Positions 5,556-23,559 of a DNA stretch of 36,886 bases are shown one piece after another. Source of the stretch: a virus. Below the pieces are notes generated by a model. It made no database searches. It was not told the DNA's origin and worked only from the letters and a program-made list of their open reading frames with translations. The translations under genes and the position numbers were made by a program. Every line of letters begins with the position of its first letter. Within the stretch, counting starts at the first letter, position 1. The DNA lies in IMG/VR virus record IMGVR_UViG_3300036795_000442, positions 1 to 36,886 of that record; one strand, 5' to 3'.

Positions 5556-5860
5556 TGCCGAGCAGGGGACCGACAGCCGAAGGGATCGCCGCGGCTTGGG
5601 ATCATGTTCGCAGGCGCGTGCGGGACGGGTCTGACGGACCGTTCTGCTGCCTTAGCTGCTCCGGGCCGCGCACCTGGCCCGTGATGCTCTGGGCGTTGGG
5701 CGCCGCCTTCCCACGCCGCAGCCCAGTCGATTGGGCGCCCTTCCTCGACATCGATCCGGACGACGCGGCGGTCACGCTCGCGCGGGTCCGGACCTACCCC
5801 TGGTTCTCGTGGGACCTCGTCACCGAGGCCATGGCCATCATGATCGAGGCCTCGGCGTGA
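5555..5860 (+). CDS. hypothetical early protein (101 aa)
   Basis: This 101-residue protein begins at ATG 5555, sharing one base with the previous stop (TGATG). It has a cysteine cluster (FCCLSC at about 31-36), which could bind metal although a full set of ligands is not obvious. A Trp/Phe-rich second half follows (WAPFLDIDPDD, YPWFSWDLV), ending in a short acidic helix. No family is recognised. The stop overlaps the GTG of the DnaA-like fusion gene, so translation is probably coupled. Confidence 0.55.
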   Translation: MPSRGPTAEGIAAAWDHVRRRVRDGSDGPFCCLSCSGPRTWPVMLWALGAAFPRRSPVDWAPFLDIDPDDAAVTLARVRTYPWFSWDLVTEAMAIMIEASA

Positions 5861-6570
5861 TCGCGGCGCGCGAGGACCTGGGCCTGGCCGCGGCGATCGA
5901 CGCCGCCGGCGGCGTGCGCCCGCTGGCGGCGCGGCTGCAGCTGACGCGGCGGGCGGTGCAGAAGTGGGACCGCGTGCCGCAGGACCGGGTGTTCCCGGTG
6001 AGCCGCGCCACCGGCCTCGCGCCCGAGCGGCTGCGCCCGGACCTGGCCGAGTGGATCGCGGCCGAGCGGGCGCGCCAGCGGCTGGCGGCGGCGCGCGAGC
6101 GCTTCAGCCTGGTGCGGGCCGCGGCGCCGGCGCTGGCCGCCACGCCGCGCCAGGCGCTCGACCAGGTGCTGGTCGACTACCTGACCGCCTTCGCCGCGGT
6201 GCGCTTCGTCGCCGGCGAGCGCGAGCTCGGCCTCGCGCCGATCATCTGCGGGCGCAAGCGCGAGCTGATGGGCGCGCGCAGCTGGGCCATGGGCCTGGCG
6301 CACGTGGGCGCCGGCGCCTCGTCGACCACGGTCGGCCTCTTCTTCGGCACCTCGCGGCAGAACATCGACAACGCGTCGGAGCGCTACCTGCGGGCGCGCG
6401 ACGGCGACGACCCGGACGACTTCGTGGCGGGCAACGACGGCCGCGACCGCGTGCTGGAGCGCGGCCGGCTGCGCCCGGCCAAGGCCGCGGCCGTCGACCT
6501 GTGGGACGCCGAACAAAGGTTCCTGGCCCTGCTGGAGGGCCAGGTCATCGAGGAGAGGAAGAGAGCATGA
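5857..6570 (+). CDS. YdaS-type HTH fused to a DnaA domain IV-like HTH; putative replication adaptor
   Basis: This 237-residue protein starts at GTG 5857 (GTGA overlap). Residues about 8-60 (AIDAAGGVRPLAARL...RRAVQKWDRVP) match Cro-superfamily YdaS-like HTH proteins. Residues about 97-177 resemble the DNA-binding domain IV of DnaA: a basic RKRELMGARSWAMGLA segment (133-148), a short spacer, then the VGLFFGTSRQNIDNASERY helix pair corresponding to IGRxFGxRDHSTVxxA of DnaA. No ATPase domain is present. A protein with two sequence-specific modules just upstream of primase and helicase genes is a good candidate for origin recognition. It may bind the iteron cluster at 12.4-12.7 kb, which is inference. 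Confidence 0.7.
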   Translation: MIAAREDLGLAAAIDAAGGVRPLAARLQLTRRAVQKWDRVPQDRVFPVSRATGLAPERLRPDLAEWIAAERARQRLAAARERFSLVRAAAPALAATPRQALDQVLVDYLTAFAAVRFVAGERELGLAPIICGRKRELMGARSWAMGLAHVGAGASSTTVGLFFGTSRQNIDNASERYLRARDGDDPDDFVAGNDGRDRVLERGRLRPAKAAAVDLWDAEQRFLALLEGQVIEERKRA

Positions 6571-7031
6571 ACCGAGAGCAAGTCGCCATGGCGGCCGAGG
6601 AACTGCGCCGCCGCGCCAACGAGGCGGGGCACGACATAGAGCGCCAGCGCAAGCGCATCGAAGACCAGCACAGGCGGATCGAGATCGCCGGCGAGATGAT
6701 CTCCGTCGCGCGCGCTGGCATCGCCGCGCTCGAACAGCGGCGCGACGGGTTCCTGGCGGGGCACAGCGAATTGCTGGCGCGGCTGAACTTCATGTCCGCC
6801 TGCGCGGGAGACGACGCCGGGCATCCGGCCGAGCCCGTCACCGAAGCGCTCCACGGCGAGGCGACCGCGGCGGCGATCGAGGAAGCCTCGGCCAGGCGCT
6901 GCCCCGGCGACGGCCAGCGGTGCTGGACCGCGGCCGGCGCAAACCCCGGCTGGCGCTGCGGCTCGGCGCGGCGCTGCGGCAAGTACGTGGACGGCTACGA
7001 CATCGGCGCCGAGCGGTCGCAACGTGCCTGA
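6567..7031 (+). CDS. coiled-coil protein with cysteine-rich C-terminus
   Basis: This protein has 154 residues. A strongly charged helix spans residues 1-75 (EELRRRANEAGHDIERQRKR, then IEDQHRRIEI and LEQRRDGF) and should form a coiled coil. The C-terminal 45 residues hold five cysteines spaced RRCPGDGQRC, RC, RRC plus aromatic residues, suggesting a small metal-bound or disulfide knob. GAGAGGA and GAGAG precede ATG 6567, which overlaps the previous stop as ATGA. It sits between the DnaA-like fusion and the primase, so a scaffolding role in replication is possible. No family is recognised. Confidence 0.6.
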   Translation: MNREQVAMAAEELRRRANEAGHDIERQRKRIEDQHRRIEIAGEMISVARAGIAALEQRRDGFLAGHSELLARLNFMSACAGDDAGHPAEPVTEALHGEATAAAIEEASARRCPGDGQRCWTAAGANPGWRCGSARRCGKYVDGYDIGAERSQRA

Positions 7032-8121
7032 GACCGACGTCCGCGGGCTCAGCGAGATGCTGGCCGACGACATCGAGGACGTGGTGGGCGCGCTCGGCAT
7101 CGACGTGCGCCGGCGCGACGGGCGCCGGCTGACGTGCTTCGCGCCGTGGAGCGGCCACCACAAGCCCAAGCTGGAGATCGAGCTGTCGCCGCTGGCGGGC
7201 AAGTGGAACGACTGGGCCGAGGGGCGCTTCGGCGACGCCCTCGGCCTGGTCGCCTGCTGCATGCTGGGCCGCTGCGAGCCGAAGTCGAAGGAAGGGCTGA
7301 GCCAGGCGATCCGCTGGGCCAAGCGCCATTTCGGGCTCGAGGAGGCCGGCTTCGATCAGGCAGCGTGGGAGGCGCGCAAGGCCGAGGCGGCGGAGCGGGC
7401 GCGCAAGGCCAAGGCCCGCGCGGCCCGCGAACTGTCGCAACATCGCGTCACCGCGAAGGCGCAATGGCTGTCGGCGCGCCCGCTCGCCGCCGGCGACGTG
7501 GGCTGGAAATACCTGCTGGCGCGCGGCGTCGACCTGGCCCAGCTGCCGCGGGCGCCGCGGGCGGTGCGCCTGGCGCAGGCCGTGCCGTGGTTCGAGGACT
7601 ACGACGCGCGCGAGCCGGCGCACGTGGGGCCGTGCCTGATGAGCGCGATGACGCTGGCCAGCGGCGAGTTCGGCTCCCTGCACCGCACGTGGATCGATCC
7701 GGAGCGGCCGGGCGAAAAGGCCGACATCGAGCGACCGCGGAAGATGTGGCCGGCCTCGGAAGGCTGCGCGATCCGGCTCTGGCGCGGCGAGAGCGGGCTC
7801 TCCGACCGCCAGGCGGCCGACCGCGGCCTGGTCGAAGACCTGGTGCTCTGCGAGGGCGTCGAAGACGGCTTCTCGATCGCGCTCATGGCGCCGGAGCTGC
7901 GCGTCTACGCGGTCGGCAGCCTCGGGGGGCTGCTGAGCTTCGAGCCGCCGAAATTCGTGCGGCGCCTGATCGTGGCGGCCGACAACGATTGGGACAGGCC
8001 GCAGGCGCAGGCCACGCTGAAGCGCGCCTGCGGGCGGTTCGTCAGCGACTGCGGGAAGCCGGTGAGCATCGCCCGCAGCCCCGAAGGCAAGGACTTCAAC
8101 GATCTGCTCAAAGGCGGCTGA
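7024..8121 (+). CDS. TOPRIM-domain DNA primase
   Basis: This 365-residue primase would lay RNA primers for phage replication. The TOPRIM domain is clear: Glu277 in LVLCEGVEDG and the Asp-x-Asp pair Asp320/Asp322 in VAADND. The N-terminal 100 residues (CFAPWSGHHKPK then GKWNDW...GRFGDALGLV) resemble the start of phage primases, but the Cys/His set of a CHC2 zinc finger is absent. It starts at GTG 7024, eight bases inside the preceding gene. Between the parts is a charged helical linker (about 115-150). It is encoded two genes before the helicase, as in many phage replication modules. Confidence 0.88.
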   Translation: MPETDVRGLSEMLADDIEDVVGALGIDVRRRDGRRLTCFAPWSGHHKPKLEIELSPLAGKWNDWAEGRFGDALGLVACCMLGRCEPKSKEGLSQAIRWAKRHFGLEEAGFDQAAWEARKAEAAERARKAKARAARELSQHRVTAKAQWLSARPLAAGDVGWKYLLARGVDLAQLPRAPRAVRLAQAVPWFEDYDAREPAHVGPCLMSAMTLASGEFGSLHRTWIDPERPGEKADIERPRKMWPASEGCAIRLWRGESGLSDRQAADRGLVEDLVLCEGVEDGFSIALMAPELRVYAVGSLGGLLSFEPPKFVRRLIVAADNDWDRPQAQATLKRACGRFVSDCGKPVSIARSPEGKDFNDLLKGG

Positions 8122-8381
8122 TGGTCGGCGATCCGCATGGCAATGCCGCCGGTGGCGCCAACCCGTTCAGTTGGTCGCAGTACGACAAGCTTCCCCCTGT
8201 CGTGCGCCGCGCGATCCAGATAGCGCCCGTCCAACTTGGCACCGCGCGGGCCACCTATGCGATTTTGGAAGGCACAGCCGCGGCCCTCGTCGCGCGCCTT
8301 GAGCTGCAGATCGCCGAGCGCGCGCGCCGGCGCCTCCTGAGACAGTATTGGCCAGCAGGCCACCCGGAGCTGCCCGAGTGA
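8121..8381 (+). CDS. small early protein, possibly DUF6525-like
   Basis: This 86-residue protein begins at ATG 8121 (TGATG overlap with the primase). The middle reads QYDKLPPVVRRAIQIAP, reminiscent of small phage proteins with a YDxLPxxxRxxLxxA pattern (DUF6525-like), followed by an Arg-rich helix (ERARRRLLRQYWP). No enzymatic motif is present. It lies between primase and helicase and its stop overlaps the helicase GTG. The assignment is a pattern impression, not a firm family call. Confidence 0.55.
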   Translation: MVGDPHGNAAGGANPFSWSQYDKLPPVVRRAIQIAPVQLGTARATYAILEGTAAALVARLELQIAERARRRLLRQYWPAGHPELPE

Positions 8382-10363
8382 GTGACGCGCTTCCTCCGGA
8401 GGATCCCCACGGCGATCGCGCGTGGCAGGCCGAGCAGCGCAAGAAACGCGGGCGCCGCGCCATCTTCGACGAGCTCGAGGAATTCAGCGCCACGCTCGAA
8501 AGCGAAGATGCGCCGGCGGAGGATGGCGAGGGCTCGCCGCCGGCGGCCGACGTCACCGGGGACGTCAAGTTTGACCGGGTGATGATCTCCCGGCTGTTCG
8601 GCAAGGTGCTGCGCCTCGTCCCGATCAGCCTGCCGGAGAACTCGCCGGTGACGGCGCTCGGCCGGAGCGGGCGGACGTACTACTACCTGACGCCGAAGGG
8701 CGAGCTGGTGGCGCTCACCGACGCCGAGCACGGCCAGGCGCATATCGCCGGCGTCTGGGCGCCGGAGACCGACGCGCTCAATGCGGCGTTCCCGCAGATC
8801 GACCAGAGCCTCCGGTTCACCGGCTTCCGCGCCAACTACGCCCGGGACGCGATGATGGCCGCGTGCGCCCGCAAGCCGGCGTTCCAGCCGCACGAACGCT
8901 TGCGCGGGCTCGGCTGCTGGCTCGACGACGAAGGGCGCCTGGTGCAGCACCTCGGCGACCGCATCCTGGTCGGGGCCGAGGAACGCAAGCCGGGCGAGAT
9001 CGACGGCTACGTCTATCCCGGCCGGCCGCCGCTGCCCGCCGGCGACGCCGGCGAAGGCGCGATCGACAAGTGCCGCGGCGTCTATTCGCGGCTGCAAAGC
9101 TGGAACTGGGCCCGCGGCGAGCTGGACGCGCGCCTGGCGTTCGGCCAGCAAGCGACCATGGTGCTGGGCGCCGCGCTGGGCTGGCGGCCGATGGCGTTCC
9201 TGTGCGGCGACGCCTCGACCGGCAAGAGCACCCTGCAGACCTGGCTGCGCGACATGCTGCCCCGGCGCCTGATCGGCACGGTGGACGCCTCGGAGGCCTC
9301 GCTGAGGGCGTTGCTGGGCCAGGACGCCGTCGGGGTAAGCTTCGACGAGATCGAGGCCGACGCGTCCAACGAGCGCGCCCAGCAGGTGATGAAGCTGGCG
9401 CGCACGGCCGCCAGCGGCGACGTGGCCTATCGCTCCGGCTCCGACCAGCAGGCGCGGCAGTTCACGCTCCGCGGCTCGTTCTTCTTCTCGGCCATCGTGC
9501 CGCCCTCGATGCGCCAGCAGGACATGCAGCGTTTCGTGTTCCTGATGCTGCGCACCCTGCCGAAAGACGCCCGGCTGGCGGCCTGGACCACGCCCCAGAC
9601 CCGCGAGGCCGGCGCGGCGATCGTCGGCCGCATCACCGGCGCGTGGCCGCGGTGGCCAGCGGCGCTGGAGGCGTTTCAGCTGGGCCTGGCGCGGCAGGGC
9701 CACGCCCAGCGCTCGCAGCTGCAGTTCGGCAGCCTGCTGGCCGCCGCTCACCTCATGTTGGAGGACCGCGCGCCGACGCCGGCCGACGTCGACCTCTGGT
9801 GCTCGCAGCTGAAGCGCGAGACGCTGTTCGAGTACCAGAGCCAGACGCCGGTCTGGCTGCGGGCGCTGCGGACGGTGCTGGAGGCGCAGCCGGACGTGTG
9901 GCGGGGGGATGGGTCGCCCAGCGTCGGCCAGGTGCTGCGCAAGTTCCTGCGGGCTCAGGTGCGCAGCGAGGACGCCGACCGGCTGCACGACAAGCTGACC
10001 AGCGTCGGCCTGGCAGTGACCCGCGAGCGCGACACCGGCCGGGTGTTCCTGGCCGTGCCGCCGCGTCACCACGGCGTCGCCCAGATGTTCCGCGGCACCG
10101 ACTTCCAGGCCGCCGGCGGCGGCGAGGGCGCGTGGCACATTCCGCTGAGCCAGGCGCCGAAGGTGGAGGGCGCGCCGGAGGACCGCCGCGGCGTCTACCG
10201 CTCCGAGAAGGTCCCGCGGCTGAGCCGCGAATACCGCTGCGACCTGTTCTGGCTCGACGGCCGCGCGGAGATCTCCGGCGAGCTGACGCCGATCTTCGAC
10301 CGCACCCTGGCCGATGACCAGATCGAGGCCGAGGCCCAGCGCGAGCCGGGCGAGGAAGGGTGA
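8378..10363 (+). CDS. D5-like/SF3-type phage replicative helicase
   Basis: This 661-residue ATPase is probably the phage replicative helicase. Walker A is at about residues 275-283 (GDASTGKST) and Walker B at about 319-325 (GVSFDEIE). A sensor-like segment follows around VAYRSGSDQQ...LRGSFFFSAIVPP, the arrangement of D5/SF3-type phage helicases. The N-terminal 60 residues are charged and disordered-looking, and the C-terminal part is a helical, probably DNA-binding extension. The start is GTG 8378, overlapping the previous stop as GTGA. It follows the TOPRIM primase in one operon, so the two presumably act together at the fork. Confidence 0.85.
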   Translation: MSDALPPEDPHGDRAWQAEQRKKRGRRAIFDELEEFSATLESEDAPAEDGEGSPPAADVTGDVKFDRVMISRLFGKVLRLVPISLPENSPVTALGRSGRTYYYLTPKGELVALTDAEHGQAHIAGVWAPETDALNAAFPQIDQSLRFTGFRANYARDAMMAACARKPAFQPHERLRGLGCWLDDEGRLVQHLGDRILVGAEERKPGEIDGYVYPGRPPLPAGDAGEGAIDKCRGVYSRLQSWNWARGELDARLAFGQQATMVLGAALGWRPMAFLCGDASTGKSTLQTWLRDMLPRRLIGTVDASEASLRALLGQDAVGVSFDEIEADASNERAQQVMKLARTAASGDVAYRSGSDQQARQFTLRGSFFFSAIVPPSMRQQDMQRFVFLMLRTLPKDARLAAWTTPQTREAGAAIVGRITGAWPRWPAALEAFQLGLARQGHAQRSQLQFGSLLAAAHLMLEDRAPTPADVDLWCSQLKRETLFEYQSQTPVWLRALRTVLEAQPDVWRGDGSPSVGQVLRKFLRAQVRSEDADRLHDKLTSVGLAVTRERDTGRVFLAVPPRHHGVAQMFRGTDFQAAGGGEGAWHIPLSQAPKVEGAPEDRRGVYRSEKVPRLSREYRCDLFWLDGRAEISGELTPIFDRTLADDQIEAEAQREPGEEG

Positions 10364-11994: not shown

Positions 11995-12011
11995 GTGTTC
12001 AGAATGAACAC
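11995..12011. promoter_or_regulatory. 17-base palindrome over the start codon of the RHH gene
   Basis: GTGTTCAGAATGAACAC is a perfect inverted repeat (GTGTTCA/TGAACAC, 3-base centre) and contains the ATG at 12004. Ribbon-helix-helix proteins usually bind short palindromes at their own promoters, so this is a likely autoregulatory operator. It could also serve the divergent gene pair ending at 11300. Confidence 0.6.
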
Positions 12012-12246
12012 CAAATTGACGAGCGGTCAAGGCGCAGGCAGAAAAGGCGTCGTGACGTCCTCGCCCGAAACCTTCTCCGTGCGCCTCGCCGACCCGGCTC
12101 GCCGGGCGTTGCGACGCGCGGCTCAACAGGACGGCCGCAGCGTCTCGAACCTGGTGCAGCGCATCCTGACCGAATGGCTGCGCGCCGGCGGCCACCTGAG
12201 CGCCGGCGACACAGTCACGACGCCCTGCGAGCACCCTGGCGCCTGA
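12004..12246 (+). CDS. ribbon-helix-helix (Arc/CopG-type) DNA-binding protein
   Basis: This 80-residue regulator has its RHH core at about residues 22-57: strand ETFSVRLAD, helix PARRALRRAAQQDG, turn RSVSN, helix LVQRILTEWLR. This is the standard Arc/CopG/MetJ architecture, acting as a dimer that inserts the strand into the major groove. ATG 12004 lies inside a perfect palindrome and lacks a ribosome-binding site. GTG 12052, preceded by AAAAGG, is an alternative start that would leave the palindrome upstream and keep the RHH core complete. No toxin gene is recognisable next to it, so I do not call a toxin-antitoxin pair. Confidence 0.7.
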   Translation: MNTKLTSGQGAGRKGVVTSSPETFSVRLADPARRALRRAAQQDGRSVSNLVQRILTEWLRAGGHLSAGDTVTTPCEHPGA

Positions 12247-12753
12247 GCGGGCTTCTCGATGCCTCTGGGCCGCGTCTTACCCTGCTGAAACTGCCTTCGG
12301 CCTCCCCGACCCGCACCGCACCAGCTCACACCCGAGCCCCGACCCCGGAGCGGCGAGGCTTGTGCAGCGGCTATCCATAAGGCAGCATGCCTGGGCGTCG
12401 GGCGGCGGCGGCGGTCAAAGTCCCACGCAAGTCCCAGCGACGCCCCTGGCGGGCGGGACATCGAACGCCAGCCAAAATCAATCAGTTAGCGGCCATGTCC
12501 CGGATGTCCCGGAAGTCCCGTGGCCCGGCCTCGTACGCGTGCGCGCAGGCGAGACGACAATGCGCCAATCCGGCCATAGCGCGAGAGGTAAGGGACATAT
12601 GGGACATTGGGACTTCTATTATTAACCCTTTGCCCAGCCTCGCTTTTTCGATGTCCCAGGATGTCCCAAAGCGCCGCCGGCCGTGGGACATCGGCGCGTT
12701 GCCGGCTGGCCCGGTGAGGCGAGGATCGCGGGCAGGTAAACAACGGGTGCGAT
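12247..12753. other. 500-base gene-free region between accessory and late modules
   Basis: No frame here gives a convincing protein. The first 170 bases are pyrimidine-rich and featureless. From 12418 to 12691 lies a dense cluster of short repeats around an AT-rich patch. The last 60 bases lead to the small terminase start at 12754, which has only a weak ribosome-binding site. I see no clear promoter or terminator. Confidence 0.6.
12418..12691. repeat. iteron-like cluster of twelve A(T/A)GTCCC / GGGAC(A/T)T repeats
   Basis: A(T/A)GTCCC occurs at 12418, 12429, 12495, 12504, 12513, 12651 and 12661. The complement GGGAC(A/T)T occurs at 12455, 12592, 12601, 12609 and 12685. Three copies at 12495-12521 are tandem with a 9-base period; three inverted copies at 12592-12615 have 9- and 8-base steps. 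An AT-rich patch (TTCTATTATTAA, from about 12614) lies between the inverted triplet and the 12651/12661 pair. This resembles replication-origin iterons beside an unwinding element, or multiple terminase binding sites, since the small terminase gene starts 63 bases further on. Confidence 0.75.
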
Positions 12754-13347
12754 ATGCCGAACGGCTCGGCGGAGGGTTTGCGGCAGGCGGTGGACGCCTT
12801 CCAGGGCGACGCGGAAGACGCCGAGGCAGCTGGCGGCGACCTGTTCGGCGAGGTGACGGGCGCGCTCGATGCGCCCTCGCCGCTGTCGGCGCTGTTCGAG
12901 CCGCGCAAGGGCGGCGGGCGCCCGAAGGGCTCGCCGAACCGGATGACGACGCAGACCGCGCAATGGCTGTTGTCGCAGGTGCGTCACCCGCTGCTCGTTC
13001 TCGCCGAGGCTTACAGCATGTCGCCGGCCGAGCTCGCGCAGCGGATCGGGCTGGCGTCGGGCCGGTGGGAGAAGGCTGAGGGCGAGAAGGAACCCAGATG
13101 GGTGGAGGGCTACAGCGACGAGGTGCTGTTGCAGCTGTTCAAGATGCAGATGGGCTTCGCCGCCGACCTGGCCCCGTACGTGGCCAAGAAACAGCCGCAG
13201 GCGATCGATCTGAGCGCCGGCGCGGGCGGCGACTTCACCTTGGCCGTTCTAGGGGTATCGCTTCCCGCGCGCGGCGGGGTGGTGGGAAATCCTGGCGGCG
13301 TGATCGACGGCGAGACCCTCCGGCTACCCTCCAAGTCGGACGACTGA
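12754..13347 (+). CDS. terminase small subunit (probable)
   Basis: This protein has 197 residues. A basic KGGGRPKGSPNR hinge (about 51-62) precedes a helical segment (QWLLSQVRHPLLVLAEAYSM, then SPAELAQRIGL), followed by a FKMQMGFAADLAPYVAKKQP stretch. This hinge-plus-helix pattern is common in small phage DNA-packaging proteins directly upstream of the large terminase, and such proteins recognise the packaging site. The C-terminal 50 residues are Gly/Val-rich. It begins just after the repeat cluster, which fits a protein that binds a nearby site. Assignment rests on position plus pattern. Confidence 0.65.
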   Translation: MPNGSAEGLRQAVDAFQGDAEDAEAAGGDLFGEVTGALDAPSPLSALFEPRKGGGRPKGSPNRMTTQTAQWLLSQVRHPLLVLAEAYSMSPAELAQRIGLASGRWEKAEGEKEPRWVEGYSDEVLLQLFKMQMGFAADLAPYVAKKQPQAIDLSAGAGGDFTLAVLGVSLPARGGVVGNPGGVIDGETLRLPSKSDD

Positions 13348-22972: not shown

Positions 22973-23559
22973 TGGCTGAAATGGTCACCACCCTGTTCGC
23001 CACGCTGGGCGCGAGCGGCGCCGCCGCCGGCGGCTCCAGCCTCGGCGGCGCGATGGCCGCCAGCGGCGCCGCCGCGGCCGGCGCCTCGGCCGCCGGCGCC
23101 AGCGCCCTCACCGCGCTCAGCGCCGGGACGTCGATGATCTCCGGCCTCTCGGCCTACGCCCAGGGGCGCCAGCAGGCGCAGGCGCTCGAGGACCAGGCGG
23201 CGAGCGAGCGCATGGCCGCCACCGGCGAGCTGACCGACGCCCAGCAGAAGGCGACGGCGATCCAGAACCAGTACAACCAGGTCGTGGCCGACCAGTTCGC
23301 CGTCGCCTCGGCCTCCGGCTACGACGTCTCGTCCGGCTCCGTGGTCGCGGCGCGCCAGTTCGCCCAGACCCAGGCCGACACGCAGATCAGCATCGTGCAG
23401 AACGGCGGCCAGATGAACGCCGCGCTGCGCCGCGCGCGCGCCTGGCAGGACCAGAACGCGGCCTCGCTGGCGACGGAGAGCGGCGCGATCACCGCCGTCC
23501 AGAAGGTCGCCCAGGGCCTGTTCGACATGGCCAGCATCGGCGGCGGCTCGGGAGCCTGA
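22972..23559 (+). CDS. internal virion protein, T7 gp14-like
   Basis: This 195-residue protein is Ala/Gly/Ser-rich over the first 60 residues, with a hydrophobic stretch that could insert into a membrane. A helical region follows (MISGLSAYAQGRQQAQALED, and NQVVADQFAVASASGYDVSSGS). The SGYDVSSGS turn followed by a long Gln-rich helix is typical of the small internal core protein of podoviruses (gp14-type), which is ejected first into the outer membrane during infection. It starts by TGATG overlap and ends four bases before the next gene. Confidence 0.75.
   Translation: MAEMVTTLFATLGASGAAAGGSSLGGAMAASGAAAAGASAAGASALTALSAGTSMISGLSAYAQGRQQAQALEDQAASERMAATGELTDAQQKATAIQNQYNQVVADQFAVASASGYDVSSGSVVAARQFAQTQADTQISIVQNGGQMNAALRRARAWQDQNAASLATESGAITAVQKVAQGLFDMASIGGGSGA

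Follow-up and report, generated by a model that had tools for sequence, protein, structure and literature searches.

The window analysed here is a 36,886-base stretch of viral DNA, taken at its full length, in which a dense cluster of seven-base repeats (iterons) lies in non-coding DNA between the genes for a primase and a helicase and those for the terminase. The features are as follows (strand in brackets where there is one).

7024–8121 (+): Toprim primase (DUF7146 plus Toprim_3)
8378–10363 (+): replicative helicase with an AAA+/MCM-like core and a C-terminal winged helix; proposed initiator and candidate iteron binder
12418–12691: whole iteron array, 12 AWGTCCC sites, 6 + 6 mirrored; putative replication origin
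12418–12424 (+): iteron 1, AAGTCCC, left outer
12429–12435 (+): iteron 2, AAGTCCC, left outer
12455–12461 (-): iteron 3, ATGTCCC, left outer
12462–12494: left spacer between outer and inner iterons; contains ATCAATCAGTTAG, which resembles ATCAAnnnCTTAG of several relatives
12495–12519 (+): left inner triplet, iterons 4–6 (12495, 12504, 12513), 9-base step
12532–12547: alternating purine-pyrimidine centre, CGTACGCGTGCGCGCA; a run this long occurred in 0 of 500 shuffles
12592–12615 (-): right inner triplet, iterons 7–9 (12592, 12601, 12609), steps of 9 and 8
12612–12631: AT-rich 20-mer, the best in the array at 15/20 A+T; possible unwinding element
12651–12667 (+): right outer pair, iterons 10–11 (12651, 12661)
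12685–12691 (-): iteron 12, ATGTCCC, right outer single
12754–13347 (+): probable small terminase subunit, the next gene after the array; its place is kept in near relatives, not in L381 or L383
13483–15165 (+): large terminase subunit (phrog_2), used as query for a repeat-independent search of relatives

Counted over both strands, AWGTCCC matches the window 13 times and 12 of these matches fall within the 274 bases of the array (seven on the + strand, five on the - strand), as against a whole-window expectation of 5.33 and a maximum of 11 in dinucleotide shuffles. The 460 bases upstream of the ATG at 12754 hold ATGTCCC eight times and AAGTCCC four times, while the commonest 7-mer in 200 mononucleotide shuffles of the same bases reached an average of 2.9 and a maximum of 5. 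The two-strand cluster described in the original prediction is thus real, as are its 9-base-step triplet and the mirrored one, and the comparison with shuffled controls that it proposed comes out in its favour. The AT-rich stretch that it placed inside the cluster is present, mostly within the right spacer (12616–12650), but it is modest, and a 20-mer with at least 14 A+T is absent in L061 and L362. Cumulative GC skew, another check then proposed, shows no turning point near 12.5 kb and climbs to about 17.5 kb.

Three features go beyond that prediction: the array as a whole is mirror-symmetric, its centre alternates between purines and pyrimidines, and its spacers have fixed lengths. Relative to the centre of CGTACGCGTGCGCGCA, the sites of the left half lie at -120, -109, -85, -43, -34 and -25 and those of the right half at +52, +61, +69, +113, +123 and +145, such that each half consists of a triplet with 8–9 base steps beside the centre, a step of 42–44 bases and then the outer three sites. 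When the window array is taken alone, an opposite-strand partner exists within 3 bp for 10 of the 12 sites; of 1000 random placements 5 attain this score, and by the same measure L379 reaches only 6. Between the last site and the ATG at 12754 lie 62 bases. A conserved motif resembling ATCAAnnnCTTAG is located outside the iterons in the left spacer, at about 12469–12490, and recurs in L061, L363 and L367.

Relatives were collected through the large terminase or the helicase, independently of the repeat. An alignment of three large-terminase sequences recovered relatives at 52–69% identity together with two more distant ones, and an alignment of the helicase recovered eight loci in alphaproteobacterial genomes. 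A repeat array is present in 12 of the 15 lineages found in this way (L362, L363 (= L364), L365, L367, L368, L369, L370, L379, L380, L381, L383 and L386); that of L384 is weak (GTCCC, six cores), and in L382 and L385 no array is visible. With the small terminase as query, viral contigs and phages gave zero relatives, megablast of the window's first 24 kb against phages gave no match, and family and order searches around the prophage hosts yielded nothing further.

Across this family the geometry is kept, with triplets at 8–9 bp steps, pairs at 11–12 bp steps, spacers of 41–45 bp and, in most relatives, an alternating purine-pyrimidine centre. The repeated word is not kept. AWGTCCC arrays lie upstream of the small terminase gene in L365 and L368, and in L362, L363/L364, L367 and L369 there is little or no AWGTCCC and another word stands in the same place (CAGTCCCC in L362, GGTTGCA in L363, a degenerate AGTTACGG in L367, GTCTCAC in L369). 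Shortly after the helicase stop codon the arrays are built of CGTTACG (L379), CCTAACG (L380), GGTTAC (L381), CCGTAAC (L383) or GTTAC (L386), and in L370 a CGTTAC array, by eye 3+3 | 3+2+1, overlaps the end of the helicase gene. The words across the family are GTCCC, GTTGC, GTTAC, GTTAG and GTCTC, with GTYNS as their common form. The five-base core is found 12 times in the window, L035, L362, L379 and L381, 13 times in L363 and L380, 11 times in L061, L365, L368, L369 and L383, and fewer than 11 times in L386, L384 and L367. Same-strand neighbours are dominated by steps of 9 (32 cases), 12 (22), 8 (14) and 11 (11) bases. Measured from the start of the small terminase gene, site places agree in the window, L061, L035, L365, L368 and L362 with shifts of at most about 15 bases, and the GTTGC or GTCTC core of L363 and L369 stands on the other strand over most of the array, its places unchanged. 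The original prediction held that repeats absent or unspaced in close relatives would count against it; the alignment of relatives revealed the opposite, since the spacing is kept and only the word is not.

In nine lineages (L363, L367, L369, L370, L379, L380, L381, L383 and L386) the array starts no more than about 200 bases from the helicase stop codon or overlaps it. The window, L362 and L368 have 2–4 kb and intervening genes between the two; in the window the array is 2.06 kb downstream of the helicase gene with other sequence between, and in L362 a divergent operon intervenes. Homologous genes in L362 (5001–7031) and L365 (1–729) are 51% identical and ParB-like by eye; on the opposite strand, they lie between the helicase gene and the array in the former and upstream of the array in the latter. 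In L379 and L380, as in the window, the array is followed by a small terminase gene. In L383 the array is at the helicase and the Terminase_4 and HK97-type terminases start about 1 kb further on, and in L381, where the array is likewise at the helicase, the GpA-type large subunit is about 3 kb further on. The same array therefore occurs with phrog_2-, HK97- and GpA-type terminases rather than with the single type expected of a packaging site. On this comparison of gene orders, helicase and array appear to be a module that travels together, and because the array stays with the helicase under other terminase families, a replication origin is favoured over a packaging site.

The helicase is also the sole protein common to every array-bearing family member in which the upstream region is covered. 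We modelled its structure from six sequences, with middling quality (mean pLDDT 65.6). The top Foldseek match of the model is SaPIbov1 Rep (8tch; E 1.9e-5, with low TM-scores), and residues 206–487 align with an MCM homologue over 243 residues (Z 14.9, 3.9 Å, 13% identity; VIA-align). A C-terminal helix-turn-helix with a two-strand wing is predicted at about residues 516–560 with good local confidence. The protein has zero Pfam or NCBIfam family matches, which places it in neither DUF927 nor D5_N, and we consequently do not file it as a member of the SaPI Rep family; a sequence search of solved structures returned only weak P-loop matches. Its best reading is as a helicase that works like SaPI Rep. 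No part of the protein diverges more than the recognition-helix segment, and between L363 and L367, which carry different words, this segment is 38% identical as against 73% for the core. Relative to the core, identity in the winged helix is lower by 12 percentage points in same-word pairs and by 19 in different-word pairs, figures drawn from a small number of non-independent pairs, so the apparent covariation of winged helix and repeat word is suggestive only.

Viral contigs were further scanned for tandem triplets of AWGTCCC and for a pattern mixing the two strands, giving dense two-strand arrays at 47 loci, the window included, which form 33 lineages after merging similar ones. In 18 of the 33 a primase/helicase gene abuts the array with its 3′ end or runs into it; the families are AAA_25 (with or without Toprim or Prim-Pol), VapE, DUF5906/D5, SF3-like or, in L334, DUF927 with a Cch HTH. 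Four of the 33, the window's own included, have the array 5′ of a terminase, and the remainder have other neighbours or are unclassed. In L334 a nine-site two-strand AWGTCCC array begins 34 bases beyond the DUF927 helicase gene with its Cch HTH (7497–9826), and by its domains this protein would be a direct initiator of the Cch/SaPI type that shares its iteron word with the window. In L010, L012, L069, L085 and L337, phages whose G+C is middling to low, ATGTCCC arrays stand at the 5′ end of a terminase module, away from any primase seen and with a GpA-type large subunit where one was seen; these arrays could be origins or packaging sites. Two pieces of one contig (L335 and L351, IMGVR_UViG_3300001686_000005) carry two dense two-strand GTCCC arrays; the stretches read contain 22 and 25 core matches. 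Small DnaA-domain-IV proteins are encoded in two phages with an AWGTCCC array, beside the primase-helicase gene in L034 (record G008, 2677–2859; PF08299 E 2e-13) and at 23255–23431 in L040 (record G010; E 9e-12).

The mixed-pattern scan returned 30 stretches as against 8 for a reversed-word control. At least two of those eight are real arrays of another word, namely the dense two-strand CCCTGTA/TACAGGG arrays of L356 (5713–5974) and L359 (4490–4750), each lying at the 3′ end of a DUF5906 helicase gene or close to it (L360 is perhaps a further case). AWGTCCC is therefore one of many words, and that unrelated phages share it is in part a consequence of having searched with it. Raw triplet counts were not used as statistics because the reversed control is dominated by coding-looking tandem repeats of 9-base period. 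Judged from these neighbourhoods, this type of origin appears to be widespread among phages.

Taken together, we consider it probable (about 0.8) that this temperate phage has its replication origin in the array and that its own AAA+/MCM-like helicase recognises the iterons. The original prediction had left the choice between an iteron origin and a site recognised by the small terminase. The origin half is borne out by the geometry, the position at helicase 3′ ends and the independence of terminase type. A packaging site (pac or cosB-like) for the small terminase encoded 62 bases downstream would account for an array directly upstream of that gene at near-constant distance in nine relatives, and for the unrelated phages L010/L012/L069 and L337, in which such arrays are 5′ of a terminase module, GpA-type where seen. 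Small-terminase recognition is nevertheless disfavoured, and we regard a packaging site as quite unlikely, because the arrays of L381 (GpA-type) and L383 (HK97-type) sit at the helicase and not at terminases, which are of other families and at least 1 kb off; in addition, the L370 array overlaps the end of the helicase gene and more than half of the unrelated lineages have theirs at a helicase/primase 3′ end.

It is unlikely, though somewhat less so, that the array is an origin bound by the YdaS/DnaA-domain-IV-like protein (5860–6570), which had been proposed as the binder, instead of the helicase. The N-terminal part of this protein is a YdaS/Cro-like HTH, a weak DnaA C-terminal match (PF08299, E 0.0066) covers 6253–6351, the gene is also present in L362, L363, L367 and L368, and DnaA-C-like proteins are encoded in the L034, L040 and L088 records. 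Against this, the DnaA-IV-like helix (SRQNVDNASERY and variants) is almost invariant although the repeat word varies, no homologue was found in the 5–6 kb around the arrays of prophages L379, L380, L381, L383 and L386, and PF08299 matches only 4 of the 48 records searched. We rejected the protein as a universal binder on these grounds. Its N-terminal HTH does vary, so it may be a binder in near relatives, and it may also serve as an accessory factor or repressor. In the window and in L362, L363, L367 and L368 the fusion gene lies just upstream of the primase gene. A DnaA-type origin is not supported either: the words share a GTYNS core and vary, and a DnaA-like binder was missing near those five arrays and, by PF08299, from 44 of the 48 records. 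Short repeated words are also bound by ribbon-helix-helix proteins, and an Arc/CopG-like gene of that kind (12004–12246) lies directly upstream of the array at the early/late boundary. An operator or late-control region served by such a regulator is very improbable, however, given that its homologue is absent between helicase and array in the relatives compared (L362, L365 and L368), that neither a sigma-70-like promoter nor a terminator was found in 12240–12800, and that the conserved 6 + 6 geometry and the helicase linkage would be left unexplained. G/C-rich words are enriched in high-G+C DNA and the reversed control triplet also matches coding repeats, but an origin of the cluster in chance or composition is scarcely credible when the AWGTCCC count exceeds every shuffle, the geometry is conserved among relatives and two-strand clusters form at 22 of 85 AWGTCCC loci as against 1 of 120 control-triplet loci.

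The best reading of the locus is an iteron origin of the SaPI/SCC-Rep kind, loaded by the phage's own helicase. In SaPI Rep and SCC Cch2, the C-terminal domain binds iterons directly downstream of its own gene, according to an account that cites earlier work (PMC7581432, citing Ubeda 2007). The phages resemble SaPI Rep and SCCmec Cch/Cch2 in having short iterons that, in many relatives, come directly after the helicase gene (12 sites of seven bases in a non-coding region in the window) and, as predicted by the model, an MCM-like AAA+ helicase with a C-terminal DNA-binding-type domain. They differ in that the carriers are temperate tailed phages that encode a terminase themselves, the helicase of the window falls outside DUF927 and D5_N in Pfam, two mirrored six-site halves surround an alternating purine-pyrimidine centre, and the window array is 2 kb from the helicase and beside the small terminase gene. 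The iterons of lambda are part of the initiator gene itself and serve to recruit the helicase of the host. The combination of iterons and AT-rich DNA is shared with such lambda-type origins (O protein iterons), whereas the window array lies 2 kb outside the helicase gene and the phage has a helicase of its own. The origin of the PLE satellite is likewise that of a phage-related element, with an initiator on repeats in a non-coding origin (binding being presumed here); its RepA is a RepA_N initiator, and its iterons are longer, semi-palindromic and differently laid out (PMC7145576). In geminiviruses the positions and repeat patterns of iterons are conserved while the word is highly diverse among close relatives (PMC12548392), and here too the places are fixed and the words differ; this is an analogy only, as geminiviruses are plant rolling-circle viruses of single-stranded DNA with an unrelated initiator. 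The literature searched, limited in extent, held no description of a mirrored 6 + 6 layout in tailed phages, and a full-text search for GGGACAT gave nothing relevant among the papers listed.

In the mechanism that we propose, the helicase (8378–10363) would recognise the seven-base iterons, probably through its C-terminal winged helix, and would assemble on both mirrored six-iteron halves, loading as two hexamers. The AT-richer spacers would melt upon this assembly, and copying would begin at the array in both directions from primers made by the Toprim primase (7024–8121). The 6 + 6 count hints at a double hexamer in which each subunit has its own site, and amounts to a prediction of stoichiometry. 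More tentatively, the array may be a geometric code, in which six plus six fixed spacings position a double hexamer head-to-head at a Z-DNA-prone centre and the word acts as a swappable key that tracks the recognition helix of the helicase; a change of word with that helix would then let phages escape cross-recognition by their relatives. Because the layout is kept almost to the base while the word changes, the link between origin sequence and helicase is directly testable, and the family offers a natural series in which a single scaffold carries at least five words and the matching helicases are graded in similarity. These arrays bear on how self-loading helicases assemble on double-stranded origins and on how origin specificity evolves, and they flag likely origins in many phages and prophages in which no origin is annotated.
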